Assembly: GCF_009659535.1 (NCBI RefSeq)
Contig: NZ_VJZZ01000002.1
Location: 1 to 64,000, forward strand
Source of the DNA: Aggregicoccus sp. 17bor-14
GTDB lineage: Bacteria > Myxococcota > Myxococcia > Myxococcales > Myxococcaceae
Reading direction: 5' to 3'
Length of the DNA: 64,000 bases
The first letter of the stretch is position 1. Each line of letters begins with the position of its first letter. A program made the position numbers and the translations under genes. The notes under the pieces were generated by a model. The model was not told where the DNA came from, ran no database searches, and saw only the letters and a program-made list of their open reading frames with translations. Below, one piece after another: positions 34,903 to 50,024 of this stretch.

Positions 34903-36651
34903 ATGTCCGAGCGTCGCGCCCTCACTCCCGTCCTCCTCGTCGGTGCCGGCACCGGCGAGGCGACCTGCGGCATCCTCTACCTCGCGAGCTACCTGCGGCG
35001 CGCGGGCGTGGAGGCCTACGTCCGGCTCTACGACGGGGACGAGACGGAGGAGGAGCTGACGCGCTCGCTCGAGGCGCTGGTCGCGCGCGTGCGCCCGCGC
35101 CTGGTGGGCATCAGCCTCAAGTGGTTCCACCACGTGCACCGCGCGCTGCAGGTGGCGCGCGTGCTGCGCCGGCTGGACCCGGGCATCCGCGTGGTGGTGG
35201 GCGGCAACACGGCCTCCTACTGGTGGCGCGAGCTGAGCAGCTACGACTGCATCGACCACATCGTGCTGGGCGACGGCGAGCGGCCCCTGCTCGCGCTCTG
35301 CGAGGGAGACCCCGCGCCGCCCAACTGCGTCACCCGCGGCCCGAGCGGCGCGCCGCGCCGGCTGCCGCTCGCGTACGTGCAGGGCGCCACCAACAGCGAG
35401 GACATCCACTACTCGCACTTCGACGACATCTTCCTCAGCCAGGCGGACCGCCACGCCTTCTCCGGCTGGGTGGCGCCCGGCAAGGGCTGCGGCGAGAACT
35501 GCCTGTACTGCGGCGGCGCGCGCGGGAACCAGAAGGCGGCCTTCGGGCGCGCGAAGCCCTTCCTGCGCTCGGAGGCGAGCGTGCGCCGCGACCACGAGGA
35601 GGTGGCGCCGCGCTGCTGGCAGCTGCGCTACGACTTCTCGGGCAGCACCGCGGAGTTCCTCTCCAGCACCTGGGCCGGCGTGGACCTCTCGCGCCACGCC
35701 TGCACCTACTTCCTGTGGGGCGTGGCGCGCATGGAGCTCATCGACGCGCTCGCGCGCACCTTCGAGCGCGTGCACATGGTGCTCGACATCGGCTGCTTCA
35801 GCGAGCAGCAGCGCCAGGAGCAGATGCGGCGCGGCCTGCTCAAGCCCTGCGCCTCGGACAGCGAGCTGCTGCGCCTCATCGACGGCTGCCGCCGCCACGC
35901 GAACCTGGACGTGGAGATCTCCGGCATCGCGGGCCTGCCCTTCGCGAGCGCCGCCACCCTGAAGCAGGAGCGGGCGCTGGTGGAGCGGGTCATCGACCTG
36001 GACTGCGTGGTGGGCTACCAGCGGCTGGAGGCGCAGCCCGGCGCGCTCGTCACCGAGCACCCCGCGCGCTTCGAGATGCGCACCGAGGCGCGGACCTTCA
36101 CCGAGTTCCTCGACTCCTTCGAGCAGCGCGAGCCCGGCGACGTGACGGTGCCCATGCTGCGCTTCCTCGACCCCGCGCTCGAGGACGCCGTGGAGGAGAC
36201 GTCGCAGTACGTGGACGGGCTCGCGGCGGACCACAAGGAGGCGCGGCGCCAGGTGCCGCTCGACGGGCGCACGCGCCTGGTGAACACCGCGCCCTCCACG
36301 CAGCAGTTCCCGCTCGGCGACTGGCTCGGCGCGCACCGCGTGCCGGCGCGCGTGGCCGGGGAGCCGGTGACGGTGGTGCGCTCGGTGGAGGGCTTCGGGC
36401 TCGCGTGCGCGCCGTCCTTGAGCCCGCGCCGCTTCAGCGACCCCACGCTGGACCAGGGCGAGGACGGGAAGGTGCTGCTCGCGGCGCTCGCCGCCTTCGA
36501 GCGCCCCGCCACCGTGGCGAGCGCGGTGGCGGCGCTGGGCGCGAAGGCGAAGCTGCACCCGGCCGCCGCGCGCGAGGTCATCGAGCACCTGGTGGCCGGG
36601 CGCTTCCTGCAGCCGGCGGGTGCCGCGCGGCAGGCGCGCTCGGGCAGCTGA
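34903..36651 (+). CDS. B12-binding-domain radical SAM protein
   Basis: Protein of 582 residues. An N-terminal Rossmann/B12-binding domain (about 8-140) has TGEATCGILYLASYLRRAG, RPRLVGISLKWFHH, VVVGGNTAS and IDHIVLGDGERPLLAL. The radical SAM cluster motif is Cys196-x3-Cys200-x2-Cys203 in KGCGENCLYCGG. The middle continues as a TIM-barrel-like segment, and about 200 C-terminal residues have no recognised domain. The substrate is unknown. It stands alone, with no precursor peptide or biosynthetic neighbours, so a pathway cannot be assigned. Confidence 0.8.
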   Translation: MSERRALTPVLLVGAGTGEATCGILYLASYLRRAGVEAYVRLYDGDETEEELTRSLEALVARVRPRLVGISLKWFHHVHRALQVARVLRRLDPGIRVVVGGNTASYWWRELSSYDCIDHIVLGDGERPLLALCEGDPAPPNCVTRGPSGAPRRLPLAYVQGATNSEDIHYSHFDDIFLSQADRHAFSGWVAPGKGCGENCLYCGGARGNQKAAFGRAKPFLRSEASVRRDHEEVAPRCWQLRYDFSGSTAEFLSSTWAGVDLSRHACTYFLWGVARMELIDALARTFERVHMVLDIGCFSEQQRQEQMRRGLLKPCASDSELLRLIDGCRRHANLDVEISGIAGLPFASAATLKQERALVERVIDLDCVVGYQRLEAQPGALVTEHPARFEMRTEARTFTEFLDSFEQREPGDVTVPMLRFLDPALEDAVEETSQYVDGLAADHKEARRQVPLDGRTRLVNTAPSTQQFPLGDWLGAHRVPARVAGEPVTVVRSVEGFGLACAPSLSPRRFSDPTLDQGEDGKVLLAALAAFERPATVASAVAALGAKAKLHPAAAREVIEHLVAGRFLQPAGAARQARSGS

Positions 36652-36654
36652 GGC

Positions 36655-37140
36655 CTAGCGCCTGCGGCCGTAGACGGTCTCCACCGCCTTCTGCGGCTCG
36701 CCGCCCGGCTCGATGTTGTAGGCCGTGATGACCAGCTGGTCCGGCGCGCGCAGCTCGTGCTCGGTGCGCCAGCCCCAGCGCGGGCCGCCCTTGCCGTCGC
36801 CGTAGCTGCCCTGCACGTAGAAGCCCGCGGGGGTGAGGCCGCCGGTGGCGAACATGATGGACGAGCTCATGTGGAAGCTGTGCACCCACGAGCTCTCGAA
36901 CTGCTGCGACTCGTCGTTGAAGGCGTAGATGGCGAGTGAGCGGTGCTGCTTGCCGTCGAAGGCCTCCTCGTACTCGTGCGCGACGAAGTTCCCCTCGCCC
37001 ATCTTCCGGATGCGGCCGCGGGTGGTGAACTCCGCGAAGGGCGCCTGGGCCGGGTCGAACCAGATCTTCGAGCGGCCCACCCACTCGTCACAGAGGGAGA
37101 GCAGCAGCTCGCGCGGCGAGGGGGGCAGGGGAGGGGTCAT
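36655..37140 (-). CDS. DUF1579-like protein
   Basis: Soluble protein of 161 residues starting MTPPLPPSPRELLLSLC. The beta-rich core has W-G-S-KIWFDP, FTTRGRIRKMGEGNFVAHEYE, SLAIYAFNDESQQFESSWVHSFHMS and WGWRTEHELRAPDQLVI, resembling DUF1579/lipocalin-like proteins. The ATG at 37140 is the last that keeps a compact N-terminus. It converges with the radical SAM gene (3 bases between stops) and is divergent from the DUF11 operon. Confidence 0.6.
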   Translation of the reverse strand: MTPPLPPSPRELLLSLCDEWVGRSKIWFDPAQAPFAEFTTRGRIRKMGEGNFVAHEYEEAFDGKQHRSLAIYAFNDESQQFESSWVHSFHMSSSIMFATGGLTPAGFYVQGSYGDGKGGPRWGWRTEHELRAPDQLVITAYNIEPGGEPQKAVETVYGRRR

Positions 37141-37450
37141 GGGGCATTCATAGGCGAGGGGCCCCACCCCAGGTCCATACCCACCCTCCCGAGGTCGTAC
37201 GCGACCCCGCTTCGTTGCGCAGCTGACAATTTTGGGCGCCCCGCGGGTGACGCTTTTCGTCATCCGACCCAGCCCTTTGCGGCACTCCCGGCTCGCATCC
37301 CCCAGAACCGTCAGGACTGTTCGGGAACAGTCACACTGGCCCTCTACGTGCAACCGCTGTCCACGCTGCGTTCAGGGGAATCCCCTGGCAGCGCTCCCAC
37401 ATCCGGCGCGGATGTCGGAGCCCAACGCTGGACGTCTGCCGAGGAGAGTC
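37141..37450. other. Leader region of the DUF11 operon (no gene)
   Basis: The 310 bases between the DUF1579-like gene and the DUF11 operon contain no convincing gene. They hold a palindrome (37315-37332, listed separately) and the most AT-leaning stretch nearby (GCTGACAATTTT around 37220-37231). Promoters for both divergent genes presumably lie here, but I could not assign clear -35/-10 pairs. Confidence 0.5.
37315..37332. promoter_or_regulatory. Palindrome upstream of the DUF11 operon
   Basis: GACTGTTC - GG - GAACAGTC, two perfect 8-base arms, centred about 127 bases before the first gene of the operon. It has the same layout as the MocR-associated palindrome at 21715-21734 (GATTGTTC - TA - GAACAATC). 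It is probably an operator; the cognate protein is not known. Confidence 0.55.
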
Positions 37451-37957
37451 ATGACGGTGCGGTCGGGTGGAGTGAAGACGCAGGCGCGGCTGGCGCTCCT
37501 GTCGGTGCTGGTGGCGACGGCGGCCTTCGCGGGCCCCCACATCGAGCTGGACATCAAGCCGTTCAAGCAGGTGGTGCAGACCAAGGGCGGCGTGAAGACG
37601 ACGACCCGCGTGTCCGCGGACTCGGCCGCACCGGGCGAGACCATCGACTACGAGGTCCACTACAAGAACGCCGGCGACGCGCCCGCGGTGAACGCGGTGG
37701 TGGACGATCCCGTCCCCGCGGGCACGAGCTACGTGGCGGGGAGCGCCGCGGGCCCCGGCTCCGACATCACCTTCTCCATCGACGGCGGCAAGACCTTCGC
37801 GCCCGCGGCCCAGCTCTTCCGCACCGCGCGCGGCGCGAGCGGCAAGACCGAGCGTCAGCCCGCGAGCCCCGCCGAGTACACCCACGTCCGCTGGACCCTG
37901 AAGCGGGTCGAGGCGGGCGCCGCCGGCACCCTGACCTTCCAGGTGCGCGTGAAGTGA
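37451..37957 (+). CDS. Small secreted DUF11-domain protein
   Basis: Secreted protein of 168 residues. The ATG at 37451 has a GAGGAG site 5 bases upstream and gives signal MTVRSGGVKTQARLALLSVL-AAFA. The mature part is essentially one DUF11 domain (TIGR01451): APGETIDYEVHYKNAGDAPAVN, VDDPVPAGTSYV, then GTLTFQVRVK at the very C-terminus. DUF11 domains are Ig-like and common in surface proteins. It is first of four genes encoding such proteins, followed by a hairpin. Confidence 0.8.
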   Translation: MTVRSGGVKTQARLALLSVLVATAAFAGPHIELDIKPFKQVVQTKGGVKTTTRVSADSAAPGETIDYEVHYKNAGDAPAVNAVVDDPVPAGTSYVAGSAAGPGSDITFSIDGGKTFAPAAQLFRTARGASGKTERQPASPAEYTHVRWTLKRVEAGAAGTLTFQVRVK

Positions 37958-37967
37958 GCAGAGCCCC

Positions 37968-37989
37968 GCCCGCGGCCGTCCGCGCGGGC
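37968..37989 (+). terminator. Intergenic hairpin in the DUF11 operon
   Basis: GCCCGCG (37968-37974), 8-base loop, CGCGGGC (37983-37989), 11 bases after the stop of the first DUF11 gene. There is no T-run. It could attenuate transcription or stabilise the upstream mRNA segment. Confidence 0.45.
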
Positions 37990-38045
37990 CCCCTTGTCGC
38001 TGTGCAGTCCCTCTCCCCCAACGTCGTCCCGTCCGAGGTGCAGTC

Positions 38046-39185
38046 TTGAGTCCCTCCCCGTCCCTCCCCCTTCCGCGCTCGCTCCGCGCGCTGCTCTTCG
38101 GTGCCGTCGTGGCCGTGGTGCTGCCGGCGAGCGCCTACGCGTCCACCGCTGCCAACACCAAGATCTCCAACGTCGCGAAGGTGAACTACAAGGACGCTGG
38201 TAACAACGACCAGCCCGAGGTCGTCAGCGCTCCGGCGGACGTCACCGTCCAGCTCGTGGCCTCGGCCCCGAACCTCAGCTCGCCGGCCAACCAGACCATC
38301 CAGCAGGGCACCTCGGCGACGCTCTCGTACACCATCACCGGTACGGCGAACGGCCTGGACACGTACACCCTCGGCTCCGGCGCGACGCCCAGCAACGTCA
38401 CCGGCGTCACGCCCGCCTTCCCGGCCAGCGTCCAGCTCGGCGGTACCACGCTGTCCGCGGATGCGACGGTCGGCGCCACCACCATCCAGGTGCCGTTCGA
38501 CGGCAACAGCGACGGCTCGGTCAACGGCATCGCCGTGAGCGACAAGATCGTCATCGGCGGCGTCACGTACACGGTGGCGGCGATCTCCGAGAACCCGGGG
38601 ACCAACCGCGCGACCATCACGCTGAGCTCCGCCATCACCGTCCTGGCGAGCGTGGGCCAGATCGTCGGCGAGACCCAGACCTTCACCGTCACCGTGGCCT
38701 CGGGCAACGTGACCGGCACCAACACCAGCGGCACGCAGACCGTGGTCTCCACGGCCACCTCGACGACCACCGCCACGGCGACGACGACCCAGACCACCCC
38801 CACGGTCATCACCGTCAACCGCTCGGTGCTCACCATCAGCAAGCTGGTCTCCATCGACGGCGGCGCGACCTTCGCGGCCACGGCGAACGCCGCGCCGGGC
38901 ACCAGCCTGGTGTACAAGATCGTCGTGTCGAACGCGGGCGCCTCGGCCGCCAGCGCGGTCGTCATCACGGACGTGATTCCGGAGTACCTCTCGTACGTCG
39001 CGGGCTCCGCGCGCACGGCCCCCACCGCTGGCACCGCCTACACCTCGGCGACCGCCATCACCGACCCGGTGGACTCGGACAGCTACAGCTTCGACAGCGT
39101 GGCGCGCAAGGCGACCCTCGCGCCGAGCGGCACGCTGGCTGCCAATAGCGACATCGTCCTGTTCTTCACCGCGAAGATCGACTGA
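38046..39185 (+). CDS. Secreted DUF11-domain protein, Thr-rich
   Basis: Protein of 379 residues starting at TTG 38046 with GAGG 7 bases upstream. The signal is LLFGAVVAVVLPASAYA. After it, STAANTKISNVAKVNYKDAGNN resembles the N-terminus of bacterial 'isopeptide/DUF11' surface proteins. Middle segments are Thr/Ser/Val-rich beta repeats (TATSTTTATATTTQTTPT). The last 110 residues form a DUF11 domain (APGTSLVYKIVVSNAGASAASAV, VITDVIPEYLSYV) ending exactly at the C-terminus with NSDIVLFFTAKID. It is probably exported and assembled with its neighbours. Confidence 0.8.
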   Translation: MSPSPSLPLPRSLRALLFGAVVAVVLPASAYASTAANTKISNVAKVNYKDAGNNDQPEVVSAPADVTVQLVASAPNLSSPANQTIQQGTSATLSYTITGTANGLDTYTLGSGATPSNVTGVTPAFPASVQLGGTTLSADATVGATTIQVPFDGNSDGSVNGIAVSDKIVIGGVTYTVAAISENPGTNRATITLSSAITVLASVGQIVGETQTFTVTVASGNVTGTNTSGTQTVVSTATSTTTATATTTQTTPTVITVNRSVLTISKLVSIDGGATFAATANAAPGTSLVYKIVVSNAGASAASAVVITDVIPEYLSYVAGSARTAPTAGTAYTSATAITDPVDSDSYSFDSVARKATLAPSGTLAANSDIVLFFTAKID

Positions 39186-39210
39186 CGTCTCCCCGGTAGT
39201 CCCACCACGG

Positions 39211-39249
39211 CCCCGCGTGCAGCGCCGCCCTCCGGCGCCGCATGCGGGG
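39211..39249 (+). terminator. Long imperfect hairpin between DUF11 genes 2 and 3
   Basis: CCCCGC-G-TGC-A-GCGCCG (39211-39226), loop CCCTC, CGGCGC-C-GCA-T-GCGGGG (39232-39249 region): 15 paired positions plus one G-U pair and one mismatch. It would bury the ATG at 39242, which favours a start further downstream for the giant barrel gene. It may reduce expression of that gene relative to the two before it. Confidence 0.55.
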
Positions 39250-39277
39250 TCCGCGAGTTCCGAGCCCCTCCTCCCCG

Positions 39278-42200
39278 ATGCCTCTCGTCCCCCACGTGAA
39301 GCGCGCTGGCCGTGTGCCCGCAGCTCCGCTCCGGCCGTCCGGTCGGGGGGGCACGTCCGGGCGCGCGGCGAGGTGGGTGCTCGGGGTGCTCGCGCTCGTG
39401 CTGTCCGGGGCCGCGCAGGCGGCCTCCGCGCCGCACGGCACCCTCATCGTCAACACCGCGTCGGCGACCTCGACCGAGGACACCACGCCCGTCACGGCCA
39501 GCGCCACGACGCGGGTGATCGTCCCCACGCCGGCCCTCATCGACTTCCTGCTGTACGCCCCCAACGTCCCGGGCGCGGCCCCCCTGCCGGTGGAGCCGAG
39601 CGTCTACCTGGACGGCCCGCAGGGCAGCCCCGCGCCCCTGTCCGCGCCCCAGTCGCTGGGCTTCTACGGCCCCATCCCGCTGGGCAGCGCCGTGCCCCTG
39701 CTGAGCACCCTGCGGGCGCACCAGGGTGAGCCGCTCTTCCTGAAGCTCACCGACCTCGACGAGAACAAGGACCCGGCCGTGCGCGAGACCGTGCTCGTCA
39801 CGGTGAGCGACGCGGGCACCGGGGACACCGAGATCGTGCGCCTGGTGGAGACCGGCGTGTCCACGGGCATCTTCGCCGGCTACCTGCCCACGGTGGGCTC
39901 CGCGGCCACCCAGCAGGGCGGCGCACCCGCCGCCGCCACCGCCACCCCCTATGACGGCGTGCTGCGCGTCGCCATCGGCGACACCCTCCGCTGCCGCTAC
40001 GTGGACGTGGACGACGCGCAGGACGTGACCACCGACGCGGTGCTCGTGGACCCCACGGGCGTCGTCTTCGACAGCCGCACCGGCAAGCCGGTGGACGGCG
40101 CCAGCCTCACCCTGGTGGACGTGGCCACCGGGCAGCCCGCCCAGGTCGTCGGCGACGACGGCGTGAGCCGCTTCCCCTCCACCGTGACCAGCGGCGCCGC
40201 GGTCTCGGATGCGAGCGGCCGCCGCTACACCCCGGCGCCCGGCGGCTTCCGCTTCCCGCTCGTGGCTCCCGGCCGCTACCGCCTCGACGTGAAGCCCCCC
40301 GCGGGCTACCTCGCTCCCTCGAGCGTGCCGGACGCGGAGCTCGCCGCGGGCCCGGCCGGCCCCTACGCCGTGAGCCCGGCCTCGCGCGGCGAGGCCTTCC
40401 AGGTGCTCGCGGGGCCGCCCGTCCAGACCGACGTCCCCGTGGACCCCGCGAGCACCACGCTCTGGGTGCAGAAGGTCGCGCGCAAGGCCAGCGCCAGCGT
40501 GGGCGACTTCGTCCCCTACGAGCTCACGGTGAGCAACCTGAGCGCCGCGGCGGCCGCGCGCGACGTGAGCCTCACGGACACGCTGCCCGCGGGCCTGCGC
40601 TACGTGCCGGGCTCGGCCACCCGCGACGGCGCCCCGGTGGCGGACCCCGCGGCGAGCGCGGACGGCCGCACCCTCACCTTCGCCCTGGGCGAGCTCGCCG
40701 CGGGCGGCGCGACCACCGTGCGGCTCGTGGTGCAGGTGGTGCCCGGCGCGCGCGCGGGCGGCCAGCTGGTGAACGAGGCGAGCGCGGTCTCCGGGACCAC
40801 CGGCCTCGTCTCCAACCGCGCCACCGCGCCCCTGCGCATCACCGAGGCCTTCCTCACCTCGCGCGCGCTCATCATGGGCCGCGTGGTGGTGGGCGAGTGC
40901 GGCGCCACGGGGCCCCAAGACGCCCCGGGCCTCGAGGGCGCGCACGTCTTCCTCGAGGACGGCACCTGGGTCGCGAGCGACGTGCAGGGCCTCTTCCACT
41001 TCGAGGGCGTGCGCTCCGGTACGCACGTGGTGCAGCTGGACCTGGACTCGCTGCCGGAAGGCTACGAGCCGGTGCTCTGCCCCAAGAACAGCCGCTCCGC
41101 GGGCCGCGCCTTCTCGCAGTTCGTGGACCTGCAGGGCGGCACCCAGTGGCGCGTGGACTTCCACGTCCACCCGCGGCCCGCGCCCGCGGCCGTGGCCCCC
41201 GCGCCCGCGGCCGACCCGGCCCCGGCTCCCGCGAGCGAGCCCGCGCCGCTCGCGGTCGAGCAGCGCCAGCACCTGGAGGGCGGCGTGCTCCACCACGAGG
41301 TGGACGTGACCGTGCGCAGCGCCCCCTTCAAGGACGTGCGCGTGCACGTGAACCTGCCCCCGGGCGTGCGCTTCGAGGAGGGCAGTGGCAGCGTGAACGG
41401 CGCGCCCGTCGCGGACCCCGAGCGAGAGCCGGGCAGCGGGGAGCTGGTCTTCGACCTGGGCAACTCGGACGGCGAGTGGAAGCGCACCCTGCGCTACCGG
41501 GCCGCGGTGGCCCCGGACGCTCCGGCCGGCGAGCTCGCGCTGCGCGCCCACGTCACCGCGCGCGACCTGCCGGGCCGCGAGGTGGCGAGCCCTCGCAACG
41601 AGGTGATCGTGCGCGTGCGCCGCGCGCGGCTGCTGCCGGCGATCAACCTCACGCTGCGCCCGCACTTCGCGAGCTTCGGCGCGGAGCTCACGGCGGACGA
41701 CCAGCGCGTCCTCGACGAGGCGGCCGAGCAGCTCTCGGGGCTCGTCATCGACCGCCTCACCGTCACCGGCCACACCGACAACCAGCCCATCTCCCCGCGC
41801 TCGCGCCACATCCACGCGGACAACCGCGCGCTCTCGCTCGCGCGCGCCGGCGTGGTGGGGCACTACCTCGCCGAGAAGCTGGGCCTCTCCCAGGACGCGG
41901 TGGTGCTGGACGGGCAGGGCGAGCTCTCGCCAATCGCGAGCAACCGCAGCGCCGTGGGCCGCGCGCGCAACCGCCGCGTCGAGGTGGAGGTCATCGGCGT
42001 GCGCCTCGGCGTGCCCGAGGTGGAGTCCATCGAGGCCGAGCCCCTCGCCGCCGAGTCCAAGGCCTCCGTCGCGCAGGCGAGCAGCACGCTGCCCGTGACG
42101 CCCGCGCCGCAGGCCGCTACGGCCGGGTCCTCCGGCGCGCAGGTCTCCGCCGGCGCCCCCGCGCTCTCCACCCCCGCGCAGGCCGGGGCGCCCTCTGCCG

Positions 42201-45200
42201 CCGCCGCCCCGTCCGCGGTCCCCGCCCCGGGCGCGGCGCAGGCCAGCAGCCCCGCCACCGCGCCCACCGTCCAGGCCGCGCCGGGCACCGCCGTCAGCTC
42301 CGGCAGCGCCGGCGCGCCGGGCGCGAGCAGCTCCGCCAGCGCGGGCGCGGCGCAGGCCACCCCCGGCGCCGCGGCGGCCGCGGCCGCTGCGCCCCGCCAG
42401 GGCCTGCTCAGCCCGATGGACGGCGACGTCCTGGTGGACCGCATCAACGCGGTGCAGGTGCGCGTGCGCAGCTACCTCACCGTGGAGCTGCTGCTGGACG
42501 GCAAGCCGGTGCCGCAGGAGCGCATCGGCTTCCGCGCCGCGGAGCCCGACACGCGCACCACGCTGCTCACCTACGTGGGCGTGGACTTCGGGGACGTGGG
42601 CGAGCACACGCTGCAGCTCAAGGGCACCGACCCCTTCGGCAACGTGCGCGTGAACGAGACCGCGCACCTGCGCCGCTCCAGCGAGGTCGCCGCCCTCCGC
42701 TTCGTGTCCGCCGAGGGCAACGTCGCGGACGGCCGCACGCCGGTGCGCATGCGCTTCGAGCTGCTCGATGCCACGGGCACCGTGCTGCACGCCGCCACGC
42801 GCCTGGACCTGCGCGACAGCTCGCTGCGCCCGCTGCGCCGCCCCGAGGACAGCCTCTCGCTCGAGGACGCGGCGGGCCGGCGCTGGGTGCAGATGGACCG
42901 GGACGGCTGGGTGAGCTTCGATCCCGTGCAGGCCACCGGCACCCAGCACGCCGTGGTCGCGCTCGGCGGCCTCACGGCCCGCGGCGAGACCTACGTGGCG
43001 CCCAAGCTGCGCGACTGGATCCTGGTGGGCCTCGCCGAGGGCGGCGTCGGCTACAACGCCGTCTCCAAGCACCTCGAGACCCTGCCCGCCGGGGCCCCCA
43101 CCGAGGACTTCTACGCCGACGGGCGCCTCGCCTTCTACGCGAAGGGCCGCGTGAAGGGCGAGTGGCTGCTCACGCTCGCCTACGACAACACGAAGTCGCG
43201 CGCCGAGGTGGGCAACAGCCTCTTCCAGACCATCGACCCGAACACGTACTACACGCTGTACGGGGACGGGACGCTGCAGCAGTACGACGCGCCGAGCGCG
43301 CGCAAGCTGTACGTGAAGATCGAGCGCGAGCAGTACTACGCGCTGTTCGGCGACTTCGACACCGGCCTGGGCGCCACCGACCTGTCGCGCTACAGCCGCC
43401 GCCTCAACGGCGTGAAGACCGAGCTGCGCCTGAAGCACCTGGACGTCAACGCCTTCGGCACCCAGACCGACCTGGCCTACGCGCGCGAGGAGCTGCAGGG
43501 CGACGGCACCTCGGGCCTGTACCGGCTCGCGCGCGGCGGCCTCACGGCCAACGGCGAGAAGGTGACCATCGAGGTGCGCGACCGCTTCCGCACCGAGGTC
43601 GTCCTCTCCACGCGCACCCTCACGCGCTTCATCGACTACTCCATCGACTACGACACGGGGACGCTCTTCTTCCGCGAGCCCATCCCCAGCCGGGACCTGG
43701 CCTTCAACCCGGTGTTCATCGTGGTGGAGTACGAGACGCGCTCGCTGGACGGGCAGCACCTCACCGCGGGCGGCCGCGCGGGCCTCAAGCTGCTGGACAA
43801 CCGCCTGAAGCTGGGCACCACCGTGGTGCACGAGGACCGGGGCGAGCGCGCGGGCACCCTCTACGGCGCGGACTTCGAGGCGGACCTGACGCCCACCGTC
43901 AAGGTGCGCGCCGAGCTCGCGCACACCGAGGGGCAGCGCGCGGACGGCACCGAGGGCGACGGCACCGCCTACCTCGCCGAGGTCTCGCACCGCAGCCACG
44001 ACTGGGACGCGCGCGCCTACGCGCGCCTGCTGCCCGGCGACTTCGGCCTGGGCCAGCAGGCGCTCACCGAGACCGGCACCCGCAAGCTCGGGGTGGACGC
44101 GGCCTACCGCTTCACGGACCACCTGCAGCTGGGCGGCACCGGCTACCGCCAGCACGTGTTCAGCACGGACGCCACGCGCGACGTGGCCGAGGCGCGCTTC
44201 GGCTACACGCAGGGCCTGTCGGGCGCGAGCGTGGGGCTGCGCTACGCGGAGGACCGGCTCGCGGACGGCAGCGAGCACCTGTCCACGCAGGCCATGGCGG
44301 GCACGAAGCTCGCGCTGCTCGAGGACCGGCTGGTGCTCTCGGTGGAGCACGCCCAGTCGCTCGTGAACGACGAGAACGTGGACTACCCCACCCGCACCCT
44401 CTTCGGGGCCGAGTACAAGCTCACCCGCAAGGTGACGCTGCTGGGCGCCGAGGAGCTGACGTGGAAGGACGGCGTGGCCACCGCCGCCACCCGCCTGGGC
44501 GTGCGCTCCACGCCGTGGACGGGCGCCACCGTGAGCTCCTCCATGGAGAGCCAGCTGCGCGAGAACAGCGAGCGCCTCTTCGGCACCCTCGGCCTGCGCC
44601 AGACCCTGCAGCTGAGCGAGGCGTGGCGCGCGGACTTCGGGCTCGAGCGCACCCAGACCTTCAGCCGCGAGGGCACCTACCTCTTCAACCCCGCCGTGCC
44701 CCTGACCTCGGGCGCGAGCGAGGACTTCACCGCGGCCTCCACCGGCGCGACCTACCAGGTGCGCCGCTTCCTCTGGGACTCGCGCGCCGAGCTGCGCCTG
44801 GGCGAGCTGAGCCGCCGCTGGAACCTGCTCAGCGGCCTGGTGACCGAGACGGGCGCGGCCTGGGGCTGGACGGGCCGCCTGCAGCTGCTGGACGAGCACC
44901 AGCACGCGACGGGGCAGGGCACGCGCACCGCCGCGCTGCGCCTGGGCCTCGTCTACCGCCCGCCGGAGACGAGGTGGATCGTGCTCGACCGCCTGGACCT
45001 CATCCACGAGCGGCGCACGGGCAGCACCGACCCGGGCACCGGCACGCGCCTGGTGAACAACCTCAGCCTCAACGCGCGCCCCGGCGAGAAGCTGCAGGTG
45101 TCCGTGTTCGCGGGCGCGAAGTACACGCGCGAGCAGCTGCTCGGCACGGTGCAGGCCGGCTACACGGACGAGCTCGGGCTCGAGGGCCGCTACGATCTCA

Positions 45201-45460
45201 CCGAGCGCCTGGACGTGGGGCTGCGCGCGAGCGCCCTGCACGCCTGGCGCGGGGGCCAGCTCGCCTACAGCGGCGGTCCCTCGGTGGGCTACAACGTGGT
45301 GGAGAACATGTGGCTGAGCGCCGGCTACAACGTCTGGGGCTACGAGGACCGTGACTTCGTGGCCTCCAATTACGCCGTGCAGGGCCCCTACGTGCGCCTG
45401 CGCGTGAAGCTGGACCAGCAGACGGTGCACGACGCCGCCCGCTGGCTCTTCGGACAGTGA
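39278..45460 (+). CDS. Giant surface protein: DUF11 and carboxypeptidase-regulatory-like domains, OmpA-like domain and C-terminal beta-barrel
   Basis: About 2060 residues. The start at 39278 is chosen because the ATG at 39242 lies in a hairpin; the signal is WVLGVLALVLSGAAQA. Visible modules: a carboxypeptidase-regulatory-like domain (about 256-348, VFDSRTGKPVDGASLTLVD); a DUF11 domain (about 398-505, DFVPYELTVSNLSAAAAA); an SdrD-B/Cna-B-like domain (about 531-610); a second Ig-like region; an OmpA-like peptidoglycan-binding domain (about 810-915, LTVTGHTDNQ, NRALSLARA, GRARNRRVEV); an Ala/Pro/Ser/Gly linker (about 928-1043); then about 800 residues of amphipathic strands typical of a large outer-membrane barrel, to the end. 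It may anchor or export the neighbouring DUF11 proteins; this is inference. Confidence 0.85.
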   Translation: MPLVPHVKRAGRVPAAPLRPSGRGGTSGRAARWVLGVLALVLSGAAQAASAPHGTLIVNTASATSTEDTTPVTASATTRVIVPTPALIDFLLYAPNVPGAAPLPVEPSVYLDGPQGSPAPLSAPQSLGFYGPIPLGSAVPLLSTLRAHQGEPLFLKLTDLDENKDPAVRETVLVTVSDAGTGDTEIVRLVETGVSTGIFAGYLPTVGSAATQQGGAPAAATATPYDGVLRVAIGDTLRCRYVDVDDAQDVTTDAVLVDPTGVVFDSRTGKPVDGASLTLVDVATGQPAQVVGDDGVSRFPSTVTSGAAVSDASGRRYTPAPGGFRFPLVAPGRYRLDVKPPAGYLAPSSVPDAELAAGPAGPYAVSPASRGEAFQVLAGPPVQTDVPVDPASTTLWVQKVARKASASVGDFVPYELTVSNLSAAAAARDVSLTDTLPAGLRYVPGSATRDGAPVADPAASADGRTLTFALGELAAGGATTVRLVVQVVPGARAGGQLVNEASAVSGTTGLVSNRATAPLRITEAFLTSRALIMGRVVVGECGATGPQDAPGLEGAHVFLEDGTWVASDVQGLFHFEGVRSGTHVVQLDLDSLPEGYEPVLCPKNSRSAGRAFSQFVDLQGGTQWRVDFHVHPRPAPAAVAPAPAADPAPAPASEPAPLAVEQRQHLEGGVLHHEVDVTVRSAPFKDVRVHVNLPPGVRFEEGSGSVNGAPVADPEREPGSGELVFDLGNSDGEWKRTLRYRAAVAPDAPAGELALRAHVTARDLPGREVASPRNEVIVRVRRARLLPAINLTLRPHFASFGAELTADDQRVLDEAAEQLSGLVIDRLTVTGHTDNQPISPRSRHIHADNRALSLARAGVVGHYLAEKLGLSQDAVVLDGQGELSPIASNRSAVGRARNRRVEVEVIGVRLGVPEVESIEAEPLAAESKASVAQASSTLPVTPAPQAATAGSSGAQVSAGAPALSTPAQAGAPSAAAAPSAVPAPGAAQASSPATAPTVQAAPGTAVSSGSAGAPGASSSASAGAAQATPGAAAAAAAAPRQGLLSPMDGDVLVDRINAVQVRVRSYLTVELLLDGKPVPQERIGFRAAEPDTRTTLLTYVGVDFGDVGEHTLQLKGTDPFGNVRVNETAHLRRSSEVAALRFVSAEGNVADGRTPVRMRFELLDATGTVLHAATRLDLRDSSLRPLRRPEDSLSLEDAAGRRWVQMDRDGWVSFDPVQATGTQHAVVALGGLTARGETYVAPKLRDWILVGLAEGGVGYNAVSKHLETLPAGAPTEDFYADGRLAFYAKGRVKGEWLLTLAYDNTKSRAEVGNSLFQTIDPNTYYTLYGDGTLQQYDAPSARKLYVKIEREQYYALFGDFDTGLGATDLSRYSRRLNGVKTELRLKHLDVNAFGTQTDLAYAREELQGDGTSGLYRLARGGLTANGEKVTIEVRDRFRTEVVLSTRTLTRFIDYSIDYDTGTLFFREPIPSRDLAFNPVFIVVEYETRSLDGQHLTAGGRAGLKLLDNRLKLGTTVVHEDRGERAGTLYGADFEADLTPTVKVRAELAHTEGQRADGTEGDGTAYLAEVSHRSHDWDARAYARLLPGDFGLGQQALTETGTRKLGVDAAYRFTDHLQLGGTGYRQHVFSTDATRDVAEARFGYTQGLSGASVGLRYAEDRLADGSEHLSTQAMAGTKLALLEDRLVLSVEHAQSLVNDENVDYPTRTLFGAEYKLTRKVTLLGAEELTWKDGVATAATRLGVRSTPWTGATVSSSMESQLRENSERLFGTLGLRQTLQLSEAWRADFGLERTQTFSREGTYLFNPAVPLTSGASEDFTAASTGATYQVRRFLWDSRAELRLGELSRRWNLLSGLVTETGAAWGWTGRLQLLDEHQHATGQGTRTAALRLGLVYRPPETRWIVLDRLDLIHERRTGSTDPGTGTRLVNNLSLNARPGEKLQVSVFAGAKYTREQLLGTVQAGYTDELGLEGRYDLTERLDVGLRASALHAWRGGQLAYSGGPSVGYNVVENMWLSAGYNVWGYEDRDFVASNYAVQGPYVRLRVKLDQQTVHDAARWLFGQ

Positions 45461-47604
45461 CCATGGCTGCCCCCTCCTCCTCGCTCGCGAAGGCCGCGCT
45501 GCTCCTGTGCCTCGCGGTGGCGCTCGCCCCGTCGCTGGGCCGCGCGCAGACCTTCCCCGTCACCCAGTGCGCTGCGGATCGCTTCCGCTCCGACCTGGGC
45601 TGCACCGCGGGCGACGTGTCCATCACCGGCATCAAGCTCGCGCCTGGCGGCCCCACCTCCTGCGTGGGCGGCACCAGCGTGACGGCGGACCTGGACATCA
45701 CGGTGAACTTCTCCACGCCGGACCGCTGGGACATCGGCATCTTCCTGGTCAACGACGGCAAGCCGCCCATGGCGATGTCCAGCAACGGCGGCGCCGCCGT
45801 CTGCTCCGTGGGCGTGCTCCCCACCACCGCGCCCTTCCTGGACCTGGACGGCGCGTCCATCGGCATCCCGGCGGACACCTGCGGCGACGGCAACGGCCGC
45901 ATCAACGGCAACACCGGCTCGGGCGTGTTCCGCATGACCGGCGTACCCGTGCGCTGCCAGGCCATCAACCTGAGCGGCGGCAACCTCTACATCCCCTTCG
46001 TGGTGTCCTGGGACAACCAGTCGAGCCCCTCGGGCTCCACCTGCCGCTCGAACGCGGACCCCGTCCCCAACACCAAGTCCAAGTGCAACTCGCCCAACAC
46101 GACCGTGGCCACTGAGGTGGCCTACGGCACGGTGCCGGTGGTGGTGCTGCCGCAGATCACCAAGACGAACAACACCCCCAACGCGACCATGGGAGGCACC
46201 AGCGTCTATACGGTCGTCATCACCAACACGACCGGCGTGTCGCTCTCGGGCGCGAGCTTCGCGGACCCGGCCATCACCGGTCTCAACGTCACGGGCGTGA
46301 GCTGCGCGGCGGGCGGCGGCGCGACCTGCCCCGCGGGCCTCACCGTGGCGGGCGTGCAGGGCGCGGGCGTCACGCTGGCGACCATGCCGGTCAACAGCAC
46401 GCTGACCTTCACCCTCACCGGCACCGTGACGGCCGCCGCCGGCGCGACGCTGACCAACACCGCCTCGGTGAGCGTGGCGGGACAGAGCAACACCGCGAGC
46501 GACACGGACCAGGTGCTGCCGCGCATCACCGTGCGCGCGCAGACCACCGGCGGCACCGCAGCCTTCAACTACACGGGCACCAACGGCGTGGGCACCTTCT
46601 CGCTCAACACGGCGACGGCGAACCCGCAGACCTCCACCACCTTCAACGCCACGGCGCTGAACACCGCGACGACCATCACCCAGACCCCGCCCGCGCTCTG
46701 GACGGTGGGCTCGGCGAGCTGCACCGACGGCAGCTCCAGCTTCGGCAGTCTCTCCGGCAACGTCCTCACGCTCGCTGCCTCGGACCTGACGGCCGGCCGC
46801 AACATCGTCTGCACCTTCAACAACCGCCCGCTCGGCGCGGACCTCGCCGTCACCGCCGCGGTGAACACGCCGGTGCCGACCGCCGGCAACACCGTCACCT
46901 TCACGCTGACGGTGACGAACCTCGGGCCGGACCCCACCACGGGCGCGGTGCTCACCGGCGCGTCGCTGCCCGCGGGCTACACGCTGCTCTCGAGCACCGC
47001 GAGCCAGGGCACCTACAGCGCGGGCACCTGGACCATCGGCGCGCTCCCGGTGGGCGGCACGGTCACCCTCACGATCACGGCGCGGGTGAATGATCGGGAC
47101 GTGGCGCCAGCCGCCAGCGCCTACAGCTTCACGACCACCGCGAGCAGCAACCTGGCGGACACCGTCACCGCCAACAACAGCGCGACCGCCAGCGTCACCC
47201 CGCCCGTGCCCCGCCTCAGCTTCGTGAAGGTGGCGGACCGCACGACCGCTCGCCCCGGCGACGTCATCACCTACACCATCACTGTCACCAACACGGGAAC
47301 GGGCAGCGCCAGGAGCGTGATCATGCTCGACCCGCTGGACGAGTACGTGGCCATGGGGCTCAACGCCTACGGCACGAACGTGGCCTTCAGCTCCACCGAC
47401 AGCACCCCGGCCTCCGGCCTCACCATGCCCGCGCCCGCCTACTCGAACAGCAGCACCACGTGGACGGCGTACACCGCCACCTCCGGCGGAGGCGGCGCGC
47501 CGGCGGGCTACGACAACAACGTGCGCCAGTGGCGCCTCCCGATGAACGGCACGCTGCGCCCCGGCGGCAGCCTCACGGTGCGCTTCCAGACGCGCATCAA
47601 GTAG
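45457..47604 (+). CDS. Secreted DUF11-repeat protein
   Basis: Protein of 715 residues starting at GTG 45457, overlapping the barrel gene stop (GTGA). The signal is AKAALLLCLAVALAPSLGRAQ. An N-terminal cysteine-containing domain (about 30-230, TSCVGGTSVTADLDITVNF and NPVPNTKSKCNSPN-type segments) is followed by at least three DUF11-like repeats. Examples are GTSVYTVVITNTTGV, AGNTVTFTLTVTNLGPDP and PGDVITYTITVTNTGTG. The C-terminus ends with LRPGGSLTVRFQTRIK, like the other two DUF11 proteins of the operon. It is probably a surface fibre or adhesin component. Confidence 0.82.
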   Translation: MTMAAPSSSLAKAALLLCLAVALAPSLGRAQTFPVTQCAADRFRSDLGCTAGDVSITGIKLAPGGPTSCVGGTSVTADLDITVNFSTPDRWDIGIFLVNDGKPPMAMSSNGGAAVCSVGVLPTTAPFLDLDGASIGIPADTCGDGNGRINGNTGSGVFRMTGVPVRCQAINLSGGNLYIPFVVSWDNQSSPSGSTCRSNADPVPNTKSKCNSPNTTVATEVAYGTVPVVVLPQITKTNNTPNATMGGTSVYTVVITNTTGVSLSGASFADPAITGLNVTGVSCAAGGGATCPAGLTVAGVQGAGVTLATMPVNSTLTFTLTGTVTAAAGATLTNTASVSVAGQSNTASDTDQVLPRITVRAQTTGGTAAFNYTGTNGVGTFSLNTATANPQTSTTFNATALNTATTITQTPPALWTVGSASCTDGSSSFGSLSGNVLTLAASDLTAGRNIVCTFNNRPLGADLAVTAAVNTPVPTAGNTVTFTLTVTNLGPDPTTGAVLTGASLPAGYTLLSSTASQGTYSAGTWTIGALPVGGTVTLTITARVNDRDVAPAASAYSFTTTASSNLADTVTANNSATASVTPPVPRLSFVKVADRTTARPGDVITYTITVTNTGTGSARSVIMLDPLDEYVAMGLNAYGTNVAFSSTDSTPASGLTMPAPAYSNSSTTWTAYTATSGGGGAPAGYDNNVRQWRLPMNGTLRPGGSLTVRFQTRIK

Positions 47605-49066
47605 GTGCGTGCGGCGGGGCTACCGGCCCGCAGGCCCAACCGGTCTCGCCCGTCCAGTCCCCACTGGAGACCCACCACTTCGAGAGGTCGGGCATCCACG
47701 TCAGCTCCGGCGCGGAGGAGGCAGCGAGGTCCAGCGGCTGCCCGCGCACCTGATTGTCCGGAGAGACGAGGTGGAGGATGAGGCGAGGGCGTCCGTCCAC
47801 CAGGGAGCCGGTGAGTGCAAGCGCCAGGTCGCCTGCCGTACCGAACGCGGTCACGAGCCGAGGCGTTCCCATGGCGCGTCCTTCGAAGACGCGCAGCGGC
47901 AGAGTGGGCGAGAGGGGCCGCACGAGGTCGACGGCGAGGTGATCTCCATCGGGTGCGCTGAAGGTGGTCAGCCAGCTCATCACGGGCGAGCCCGCAGCTG
48001 TGCTCGTCACCCCCAGCTCTGTCATGCCCGGAGCGCCCTCGTAGGCCGTGAGGGCGGAGCGCGACGCGAGCGCGCCGGACACCGTGCGAAAGAGGACCCT
48101 GCGGGCGCCGGAGGCCTCAGTGCTCAGCGCCGCCACCCCGAACTCCGCCGTGCCCACCGCCGTCACCCCTCCGAGACTCAGCCAGCTGCCGGTGCTCACG
48201 CCGGGCGCCGTCGCGCCGAGCTCCGCCTCCTCGAGGAGGGGGGCCCGCGCAAGCGACGCGAGCTCGGGCGAGAGGAGCTGGCCCTGGACCTGCCCCGCCT
48301 CCAGCCACGCCACGAGGAGGCGCTGGCGGGTGCCATCCAGCGCCAGGTGGGGCGTGGCCCCGCTCAGCCCCTCGAGCGTCTCGGGCCCCGCGGCGAGCGA
48401 AACGTCGCCCCACTTCTCACCGTGCGCGATGCGCACGATGCGCGAGCGCTGCGAGCCCGAGGACGACTCTGCGCCGCTCCACAGCACGATGGCCCCGTCC
48501 CCGAGCGGGATGGCGCGCACCGTCTGACTCAGGAGGGCAGGGAAGGCCGCAGCCTCGAGGCGGAGGCGGGGGCCCGCAGGCTCGAGCTGCGGAGTGAGCA
48601 ACTGGTAGGACACCTGGGTGTTCCAGTCGTAGTCACTGCTCCAGGTGACGAGCGCGTAGCCACGGGGAAAGACGAGCAGCTTGCCGGGCAGCCCGACCGG
48701 GAGCGCCCCCGTGTCGACGCGGCCGTCGCAGTCGTTGTCCAGCCCGTCGCAGCGCGTCTCCAGCGCCTCGTAGGTGGGCCCGTAGGAGGCAGCGGTGCAG
48801 GTCTGCTCGAAGGCTCCGTCCACGCAGCCGCGACGGACGCGCGCGCAGACGCCGGCGCTCAGCTCACACGGCTGCACGCGCACGCGCTCCTGGCAGACGG
48901 TGCCCGGGAGCGCGACACATTGCTTGTCGACGCAGTCGAAGCCCGTGGCGCAGTGCTCCCGCACCTGGCACGTGTCCGCATAGCCGCCCAGTTGCTGCGG
49001 GTCGGGAACCGCACAAGCAGCCACGGCCAGGAGGGAGAGGGCGGTAGGAAGCGCGAGCGCCTTCAT
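47597..49066 (-). CDS. Lipoprotein with MopE-type putative metal-binding motif
   Basis: Protein of 489 residues with lipobox VAACA (ATG 49066). The N-terminus is cysteine-rich (CQVREHCATGFDCVDKQC), followed by ETRCDGLDNDCDGRVD, the MopE/'putative metal-binding motif' common in myxobacterial surface lipoproteins. The remaining 350 residues are beta-rich, propeller-like blocks. It converges with the DUF11 operon, overlapping its last gene by 8 bases. Role unknown; surface calcium or metal binding is the usual suggestion. Confidence 0.75.
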   Translation of the reverse strand: MKALALPTALSLLAVAACAVPDPQQLGGYADTCQVREHCATGFDCVDKQCVALPGTVCQERVRVQPCELSAGVCARVRRGCVDGAFEQTCTAASYGPTYEALETRCDGLDNDCDGRVDTGALPVGLPGKLLVFPRGYALVTWSSDYDWNTQVSYQLLTPQLEPAGPRLRLEAAAFPALLSQTVRAIPLGDGAIVLWSGAESSSGSQRSRIVRIAHGEKWGDVSLAAGPETLEGLSGATPHLALDGTRQRLLVAWLEAGQVQGQLLSPELASLARAPLLEEAELGATAPGVSTGSWLSLGGVTAVGTAEFGVAALSTEASGARRVLFRTVSGALASRSALTAYEGAPGMTELGVTSTAAGSPVMSWLTTFSAPDGDHLAVDLVRPLSPTLPLRVFEGRAMGTPRLVTAFGTAGDLALALTGSLVDGRPRLILHLVSPDNQVRGQPLDLAASSAPELTWMPDLSKWWVSSGDWTGETGWACGPVAPPHAPT

Positions 49067-49148
49067 TCCCGGCAAGCTAGCGGATGCGGTAGCAGCGTGC
49101 GGAGGGGACCGGGCGTGCGTCTCAATCTGGACGCCCTGCCGACACCGA

Positions 49149-50024
49149 TCAGCGCCGCGCCCGCGAGCCACGCGCCGGCCGCCGCGGCTGCTCGCAGCGG
49201 CGGATGCAGCGCACCACCTCTGCCGGGTCGTCGGTGACGGTGAGCAGCTCGAGGTCCGACGGCGCGATGCAGCCGCTCGCCAGCGGTGCGTCCCGCAGCC
49301 AGCGCAGCAGTCCCTCCCAGTAGCGCCGGCCGACGAGCACCACCGGGAAGCGGTAGATCTTCCCCGTCTGGATGAGCACCAGCGCCTCGAACAGCTCGTC
49401 GAGCGTGCCGAAGCCGCCGGGGAAGATGACGAAGGCGCTCGAGTACTTCACGAACATCGTCTTGCGCATGAAGAAGTAGCGGAAGGTCACCAGGGTGCTG
49501 ACGTATGGGTTCGCGGCCTGCTCGAAGGGCAGCTCGATGTTGCACCCGATGGAGCGCCCGCCGCCCTCGCGCGCGCCGCGGTTGGCCGCCTCCATGATGC
49601 CGGGGCCGCCGCCGGTGATGACGCTGTAGCCAGCCCGGGCGAGCCGGCGGCCCACCTCCACCGCCGCGGCGTACTCGGGCGCCTCCGGGGCGGTGCGCGC
49701 GGAGCCGAACACCGAGACGCCCTTCTCCACGCCCGCGAGCGCGTCGATGCCCTCCACCAGCTCGGCCGTCATCCGCATCACCCGCCACGGGTCGGTGTGG
49801 GTGAAGGCGTCCGCGGGCTGGGAGGCCTGGAGGAAGTGCTCGTCCGCGGTGGTGCCGTCGTCGTCGCGCAGGCTGTGGTCCACCTTGGCCGGGCGTGCGG
49901 GGCCTTCCGGGCGCAGGGCCTTCTGGAAGTGGAAGCGCAGCTGCTCGAGCGCGTCCGCCTCGGCGGGGAGGCGGCGGTTGGCGGGCAGCGAGCGGGGGCG
50001 AACACGGGACGGGCGGCGCTTCAT
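49149..50024 (-). CDS. LOG-family cytokinin riboside phosphoribohydrolase-like protein
   Basis: Protein of about 291 residues. LOG motifs are ITGGGPGIMEAANRGA and PGGFGTLDELFEAL. Related 'TIGR00730 Rossmann-fold' enzymes remove the nucleobase from AMP or cytokinin nucleotides. The ATG at 50024 is chosen because GGAG lies 6 bases upstream; an ATG at 50087 would add 21 residues but its ribosome site is only 3 bases away and its start codon would overlap that of the divergent RNase gene. The first ~90 residues are a low-complexity extension. Confidence 0.85.
   Translation of the reverse strand: MKRRPSRVRPRSLPANRRLPAEADALEQLRFHFQKALRPEGPARPAKVDHSLRDDDGTTADEHFLQASQPADAFTHTDPWRVMRMTAELVEGIDALAGVEKGVSVFGSARTAPEAPEYAAAVEVGRRLARAGYSVITGGGPGIMEAANRGAREGGGRSIGCNIELPFEQAANPYVSTLVTFRYFFMRKTMFVKYSSAFVIFPGGFGTLDELFEALVLIQTGKIYRFPVVLVGRRYWEGLLRWLRDAPLASGCIAPSDLELLTVTDDPAEVVRCIRRCEQPRRPARGSRARR

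Follow-up and report, generated by a model that had tools for sequence, protein, structure and literature searches.

Background

Several described systems come close to the locus analysed here. Chaperone-usher pili (type 1, P and archaic) are built from Ig-like subunits that lack a strand and take up an N-terminal donor strand from the next subunit, with a donor-less adhesin at the tip and an outer-membrane barrel at the base. Type V pili of Bacteroidales (FimA/Mfa1) and TasA fibres (PMC9674648) also polymerise by strand donation, in their case without an usher, and the thread of the archaeon Sulfolobus acidocaldarius is a donor-strand fibre for which an intermolecular isopeptide bond has been proposed (PMC9715654). 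Among DUF11 (CLIPPER) proteins, the adhesin B9T28_05395 of Acinetobacter silvestris (PDB 9IFR; PMC12617251) carries a Lys-Asp-Asn triad in its DUF11 domains together with an OmpA anchor, and DUF11 has been reported in a spore-fibre anchor, in a paper that does not concern strand exchange (PMC11952670). The type IX secretion system (T9SS) translocon SprA/Sov (PDB 6H3I; PMC10994853) has a large barrel: SprA is a 36-strand pore that moves cargo with Ig-like C-terminal domains, which are 7-stranded sandwiches (PMC10994853).

The operon described here shares features with each of these systems and differs from all of them. Its subunits are DUF11 rather than pilin domains, in which missing strands and N-terminal donor strands are recognised by sequence only; its candidate base barrel is fused to a donor strand and an OmpA domain; it has Lys, Asp and Asn residues positioned for covalent joints; and no operon protein matched an usher barrel or a PapD-like chaperone in Pfam or NCBIfam. 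The A. silvestris adhesin is a single chain with intramolecular bonds, whereas the operon encodes separate subunits with a divided triad and a dedicated barrel. The archaeal thread has another subunit fold, an Asp24-Asn57 bond from subunit n to n+2 and no outer membrane. Type V and TasA fibres have other subunits and no barrel/OmpA base, and type V pili are made from protease-activated lipoprotein precursors. Compared with SprA/Sov, the operon barrel is much shorter, and the other T9SS genes are absent from the operon. By the tests made, the operon falls outside the chaperone-usher pili, the T9SS and the autotransporters, although it would work like a donor-strand pilus, possibly with a covalent lock. 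The first-pass annotation recognised no described system of this composition, and none emerged from open-access papers that link DUF11 to OmpA, to barrels, to donor strands or to isopeptide bonds. New relative to that annotation, and most informative, are the complementary termini, the division of the isopeptide residues between subunits, and the occurrence of the system in split and fused formats.

Organization of the operon

The window, a 64,000-nucleotide stretch of the Aggregicoccus sp. 17bor-14 genome, contains four open reading frames in one orientation, g1 to g4 (table 1), bounded by opposite-strand genes at 36655-37353 and 47597-49171. The four frames and the GTGA overlap between g3 and g4 were already present in the first-pass annotation. 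All four proteins look exported, with Sec-type leaders as judged by eye, and DUF11 was detected in each of them by both Pfam and NCBIfam. The earlier description of three DUF11 proteins around a giant one therefore holds for g1, g2 and g4, but the giant itself (g3) has a DUF11 domain, which brings the total to four; its reported combination of Ig-like domains, an OmpA domain and a C-terminal barrel region was recovered. The flanking genes (34903-36651, 36655-37353 and 47597-49171) encode a radical-SAM-like protein with a B12-binding domain, a DUF1579 protein and a protein with a weak MopE metal-binding motif, none with an obvious tie to the operon.

Table 1. Features of the operon (positions in the window) and of two related loci.
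Feature	Position	Strand	Description	Basis
Operon	37451-47604	+	four ORFs, one orientation	coordinates as in first-pass annotation
g1	37451-37957	+	168 aa, exported; single DUF11 behind signal peptide; acceptor-only	Pfam, NCBIfam
g2	38046-39185	+	379 aa, TTG start; N-terminal donor strand, C-terminal acceptor DUF11	ORF, Pfam, DUF11 model, tail-HMM
g2 donor segment	38148-38261	+	aa 35-72 (AANTKISNVAKVNYKD...SAPADVTVQLVA); candidate isopeptide Asn42	tail-HMM 10.8 bits
g2 acceptor DUF11	38829-39182	+	aa 262-379; Lys266 and Asp309; ends ...IVLFFTAKID-COOH	
g3	39242-45460	+	2072 aa; base protein candidate, donor strand to barrel region	Pfam, NCBIfam, DUF11 model
g3 donor segment	39428-39517	+	aa 63-92 (APHGTLIVNTASATSTEDTTPVTASATTRV); candidate isopeptide Asn71	tail-HMM 22.6 bits, highest of all
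g3 internal DUF11	40463-40795	+	aa 408-518; last strand present	Pfam E 4.3e-14; DUF11 model 17-116
g3 SdrD/prealbumin-like domain	40865-41176	+	aa 542-645; common to other formats	
g3 second DUF11-like Ig domain	41318-41575	+	aa 693-778	DUF11 model; predicted strands, intermediate confidence
g3 OmpA-type peptidoglycan-binding domain (predicted)	41666-41974	+	aa 809-911	Pfam OmpA E 2.5e-13; NCBIfam
g3 Ig-like domain before barrel	42482-43006	+	aa 1081-1255	conserved in L055, L056 and cyanobacterial L017
g3 C-terminal barrel region	43013-45457	+	aa 1258-2072 (~815 residues)	profile alignments A1, A3; amphipathic strands
g4	45457-47604	+	715 aa, GTG start; tip candidate, ending in acceptor DUF11	ORF, Pfam, DUF11 model
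g4 acceptor DUF11	47209-47601	+	aa 585-715; Lys591 and Asp625; ends ...LTVRFQTRIK-COOH	
L055 (G083) proteins			167, 407, 2031 and 2000 aa	
L056 (G082) g1	G082 C277:2704-3192			

The smallest protein, g1, has the motif SIDGGKTF...PAxYTHVRW...FQVRVK-COOH and a cyanobacterial homologue at E 6e-20. From its N-terminus, g3 consists of a leader, a short segment rich in Thr and Val, a stretch that resembles a carboxypeptidase regulatory domain (under Pfam's cut-off), DUF11, an SdrD-like domain, a DUF11-like domain, an OmpA C-terminal domain for which peptidoglycan binding is predicted, a Pro/Ala linker, an Ig-like domain and the barrel-like region. Modelling of its N-terminal part with AF2 without an alignment yielded DUF11/Ig fragments only. 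In g4, a Cys-containing N-terminal domain (aa 31-230) with no Pfam match is followed by DUF11, SpaA_4, a further DUF11 and the C-terminal acceptor DUF11. This N-terminal region is unrelated to its counterparts in two other Myxococcota loci (L055 and L056) whose g3 N-termini are like that of the window (1e-85 among all three), and a domain that varies in this way fits a tip adhesin.

Complementary donor and acceptor termini

A DUF11 model of 139 positions was trained only on tandem DUF11 copies of other formats; its tail (positions 101-139) holds a conserved GTVVTNQATV strand. The C-terminal DUF11 domains of g1, g2 and g4 end before this last strand, and the model breaks off at position 95-101 exactly on the C-terminus of operon proteins: in g2 of the window it covers positions 4-95 and ends at residue 378 of 379, and the corresponding end points are 333/333 in Novosphingobium, 2000/2000 in g4 of L055 and 881/881 in Thermus brockianus. 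Across loci, 24 of 27 C-terminal DUF11s were tail-less (five of the 24 added by inspection, where the model had lost the last strand). The corresponding figures were 3 of 49 for internal copies (Fisher 2e-13) and 1 of 145 for tandem copies (5e-25). Matches of a single DUF11 domain in the PDB to designed armadillo repeats were discarded as spurious.

The missing strand is found directly behind the leader at the mature N-termini of g2 (AANTKISNVAKVNY) and g3 (APHGTLIVNTASAT), and at the N-termini of relatives in Thermus (PAGTAIQNQASASY) and Deinococcus (LAGTEITNQAQATF). An HMM of the tail alone scored a median of 10.8 bits at 23 such N-termini; the median was -2.6 for 155 other genes (p 3e-13) and 1.8 for shuffled sequences (p 4e-8), the p-values being descriptive for a donor set chosen by eye before the test. 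The same HMM gave at most 3.9 bits on 20 other operon proteins, while Thr/Val/Ala-rich N-termini score above zero even after shuffling. A motif [ILV]xNx[AG] lies near the N-terminus in 25 of 50 operon proteins versus 19 of 184 others.

The two kinds of terminus are divided among the proteins: g3 carries only a donor, g2 carries both, and g4 and g1 carry only an acceptor, a pattern repeated in L055. Acceptor-type domains occur nowhere else in the Aggregicoccus genome, so the system seems dedicated. The N-terminal hairpin could instead be a remnant or an independently folding element.

Isopeptide residues

In the DUF11 domain of 9IFR, Lys715 is bonded to Asn806 with Asp748 as the catalyst (PMC12617251). 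The Lys, Asp and Asn are invariant in complete DUF11s; the conserved Lys and Asp of the DUF11 copies align with those of 9IFR, and the conserved tail Asn can be equated with the bond Asn because the spacing to it is 95 in a related locus, L020 (hand count), against 91 in 9IFR. The C-terminal DUF11s of the operon do not hold the triad within a single domain, the internal copies retaining the strand. Each of the 18 fibre and tip acceptors retains the catalytic Lys and Asp and lacks the Asn strand; the Asn of the triad sits on the donor strand. Among g1 proteins the Asp is present in 3 of 10 (p 1e-4), and Lys and Asp occur together in none, as read by eye. Since the acceptors hold Lys and Asp and the donor holds Asn, g2 and g4 could form covalent joints with a donor, while g1 mostly could not.

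The barrel region

Neither Pfam nor NCBIfam has a family for the barrel region. Profile searches place it in a family that spans many phyla, with matches in 120 of 195 Myxococcota genomes, and a profile of 36 members is broad. The barrel of g3 contains 38 amphipathic strand-like segments, as against 21.3 +/- 3.6 in shuffles. This excess is a rough sign of a large barrel and runs against one refuting result named in the first-pass annotation, a barrel prediction with no membrane strands. The barrels of relatives end in aromatic C-terminal beta-signals (for example ...GKF and ...GQY). AF2 without an alignment gave a mean pLDDT of 31 and no usable model of the barrel.

When the profile was compared with the PDB, the only barrel proteins matched, weakly, were SprA (hmmsearch E 0.18) and designed barrels. 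Short colinear matches to the profile were present in Flavobacterium johnsoniae SprA. SprA scored 11.9 bits, compared with 2.2 bits or less for shuffled SprA (only shuffles giving any match were scored). The sole NCBIfam match of the window barrel was TIGR04189 (E 0.27; about 8 bits, where the curated cut-off is 200 bits), which 6 of the 36 profile members touched, with a best E of 0.026. A shallow profile-profile comparison (hhalign) of the barrel with two SprA sequences gave 85%, with an E of 6e-6 that applies to a single comparison. The Aggregicoccus genome has no TIGR04189 match, in a weak test where the controls were silent too. Overall, the profile similarity to SprA/Sov is weak, mostly colinear and of marginal significance, with the shared motifs DYxIDYxxGxI, GN...LyGxK and KGKI...DT. 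Homology of the barrel to SprA is likely but unproven, and by analogy we infer that the barrel may have a similar role in export.

A query with a single sequence returned almost no matches in Myxococcaceae, which made the barrel seem absent from the family; this was rejected, as the profile detects a paralogous family in most of its members. The paralogue is an SdrD/Ig/barrel protein, usually of ~1230 aa (L049-L051, L057 and L062). In the Aggregicoccus genome it is represented by a barrel-profile match at G000:C8:358119-358964 (-), in an 1838-aa ORF, and in L062 its gene overlaps that of an Invasin_D3 plus Big_1 Ig-domain protein. A scan of viral contigs found one contig with a barrel relative and none with SprA. 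A 388 kb Parabacteroides distasonis record filed as a plasmid (NZ_OY725768.1, L066) carries sprA, dxs and ruvA and is probably a piece of chromosome.

Conservation and alternative formats

The first-pass annotation proposed a search for the same gene order in other genomes. We found this order in two further Myxococcota (L055 and L056) and in Novosphingobium (L004, whose record contains frameshifts), with the 4-base g3/g4 overlap kept as ATGA in all three. In Acinetobacter haemolyticus, g1, g2 and g3 are followed by an independent OmpA gene and then by g4, and additional small genes lie close to the start of the set. Homologues were syntenic, not scattered. Related sets occur in Thermus thermophilus HB8, T. 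brockianus, Deinococcus aetherius and D. radiodurans (barrel profile E 4e-28 to 9e-7). Those of T. thermophilus HB8 (pTT27, L073) and D. radiodurans MP1 (L019) lie on megaplasmids and are annotated as hypothetical or DUF11; a frameshift split is apparent in the latter copy. A tblastn search of plasmids returned sequences from several phyla that are distantly related to g3 over most of its length. Clear g2 or g4 genes are missing at some loci, and g1 proper (E < 1e-30) was present in 4 of 193 Myxococcota genomes, in line with sporadic presence.

Other families of Myxococcota encode the system as a single chain of 5100-5350 aa (L059-L061), in which a variable N-terminus is followed by ~15 DUF11 copies, SdrD, OmpA (in two stretches), Ig and the barrel. 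A chain divided in two right in front of the Ig-barrel part, often with the genes overlapping at ATGA, is seen in Alphaproteobacteria, in Vibrio and on a contig labelled as viral; on that contig (L022, IMGVR_UViG_2684623061_000001) a giant DUF11-repeat/OmpA gene overlaps a barrel gene of the same family. In cyanobacteria two genes take the place of g3, one for DUF11/SdrD and one for the barrel; the OmpA-like part of Synechococcus NIES-970, read by eye, comes after the barrel. The OmpA domain thus stands before the barrel, after it or in a gene of its own, a freedom that is expected if only its periplasmic location matters. Because fused and split genes keep one order of parts, there is good evidence that the DUF11 stalk, the OmpA domain and the barrel act together.

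A model for assembly and its alternatives

We consider that the operon encodes a donor-strand-assembled DUF11 fibre, with g4 at the tip, g2 as linker and g3 at the base, and with joints that are possibly locked by isopeptide bonds; we put the probability of this reading at about 0.6. The fibre would be put together on the outer side of the outer membrane, its DUF11 Ig domains being joined through donated strands. On the basis of their termini, donor-only g3 would be the base, g2 with both ends the repeating or linking subunit, and acceptor-only g4, with its variable N-terminal domain, the tip adhesin. Barrel proteins have both ends on the periplasmic side, and an OmpA domain placed before the barrel can consequently reach the peptidoglycan, so g3 would have two anchors, its barrel in the outer membrane and its OmpA domain on the peptidoglycan. 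Since the OmpA domain separates the barrel from the domains at the N-terminus, the N-terminal half of g3 would have to be threaded outward, through the barrel or via a second route. The single-chain format also argues for export of the DUF11 part, since the periplasm could not accommodate the length of its 15 Ig domains. The joints may turn covalent through the donor Asn and the acceptor Lys and Asp, much like a natural split-domain ligation. As its Lys/Asp dyad is mostly lost, g1 may be a reversible, non-covalent cap or chaperone-like protein that covers or protects a free donor, though this is a guess. The first-pass annotation had envisaged an assembled structure anchored in the outer membrane; synteny and the barrel strands support this, while physical assembly is something we infer.

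It is also conceivable that the proteins are separate DUF11 stalk adhesins sharing one outer-membrane anchor, without polymerisation, and that the short C-terminal DUF11s are a sorting signal recognised by the barrel, much as SprA recognises the Ig-like C-terminal domains of T9SS cargo. The conserved C-terminal beta-sandwich at the terminus of every subunit would suit such a signal, as would the weak relationship of the barrel to SprA, whose cargo domains are 7-stranded sandwiches (PMC10994853). This explanation is unlikely on its own, as it leaves the matching strand at the N-termini of g2 and g3, and the split of Lys/Asp versus Asn, unexplained; a sorting role can, however, coexist with the fibre. 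The N-terminal strand might alternatively complete the C-terminal DUF11 of its own chain to give closed monomers. This could happen in g2, which has both ends, but g1 and g4 are acceptor-only and g3 is donor-only in the window and in L055, so these must pair between chains, making self-complementation very unlikely as a general account. Annotations of relatives as 'TonB-dependent receptor' or 'outer membrane protein transport protein' raise the question of whether the barrel is an ordinary receptor or porin with the DUF11 genes as mere neighbours. No TonB-dependent plug or receptor domain, TonB box or porin family was found in the barrel, and the fused and split formats link it to DUF11 and OmpA in many phyla; we regard this reading as extremely improbable. 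The barrel also lacks a Pfam autotransporter beta-domain of the kind expected for type Va secretion.

Implications

Taking the donor-strand fibre as the preferred reading, we tentatively suggest, at somewhat less than an even chance, that it represents a new fibre type, present in Deinococcus radiodurans, Thermus thermophilus and other members of at least five phyla, which combines donor-strand DUF11 subunits, Lys-Asn locks that form spontaneously between subunits, and a SprA-related barrel that is fused to a peptidoglycan-binding domain and serves for both export and anchoring. If so, it would be a covalent pilus made by natural split-domain ligation without sortase, chaperone or usher, giving Gram-negative bacteria and Deinococcota a sortase-free covalent fibre; should the joints prove real, the system would merit a type of its own. 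DUF11, a widespread uncharacterized domain, would gain a mechanism in multi-gene operons, namely polymerisation via strand donation, and the recurrent 'DUF11 plus OmpA plus TonB-dependent receptor' annotations would be parts of one machine. The T9SS translocon would have a possible relative, the barrel, beyond the Bacteroidota. D. radiodurans and T. thermophilus HB8 would offer tractable models, and the divided domains could provide new peptide/protein ligation pairs.
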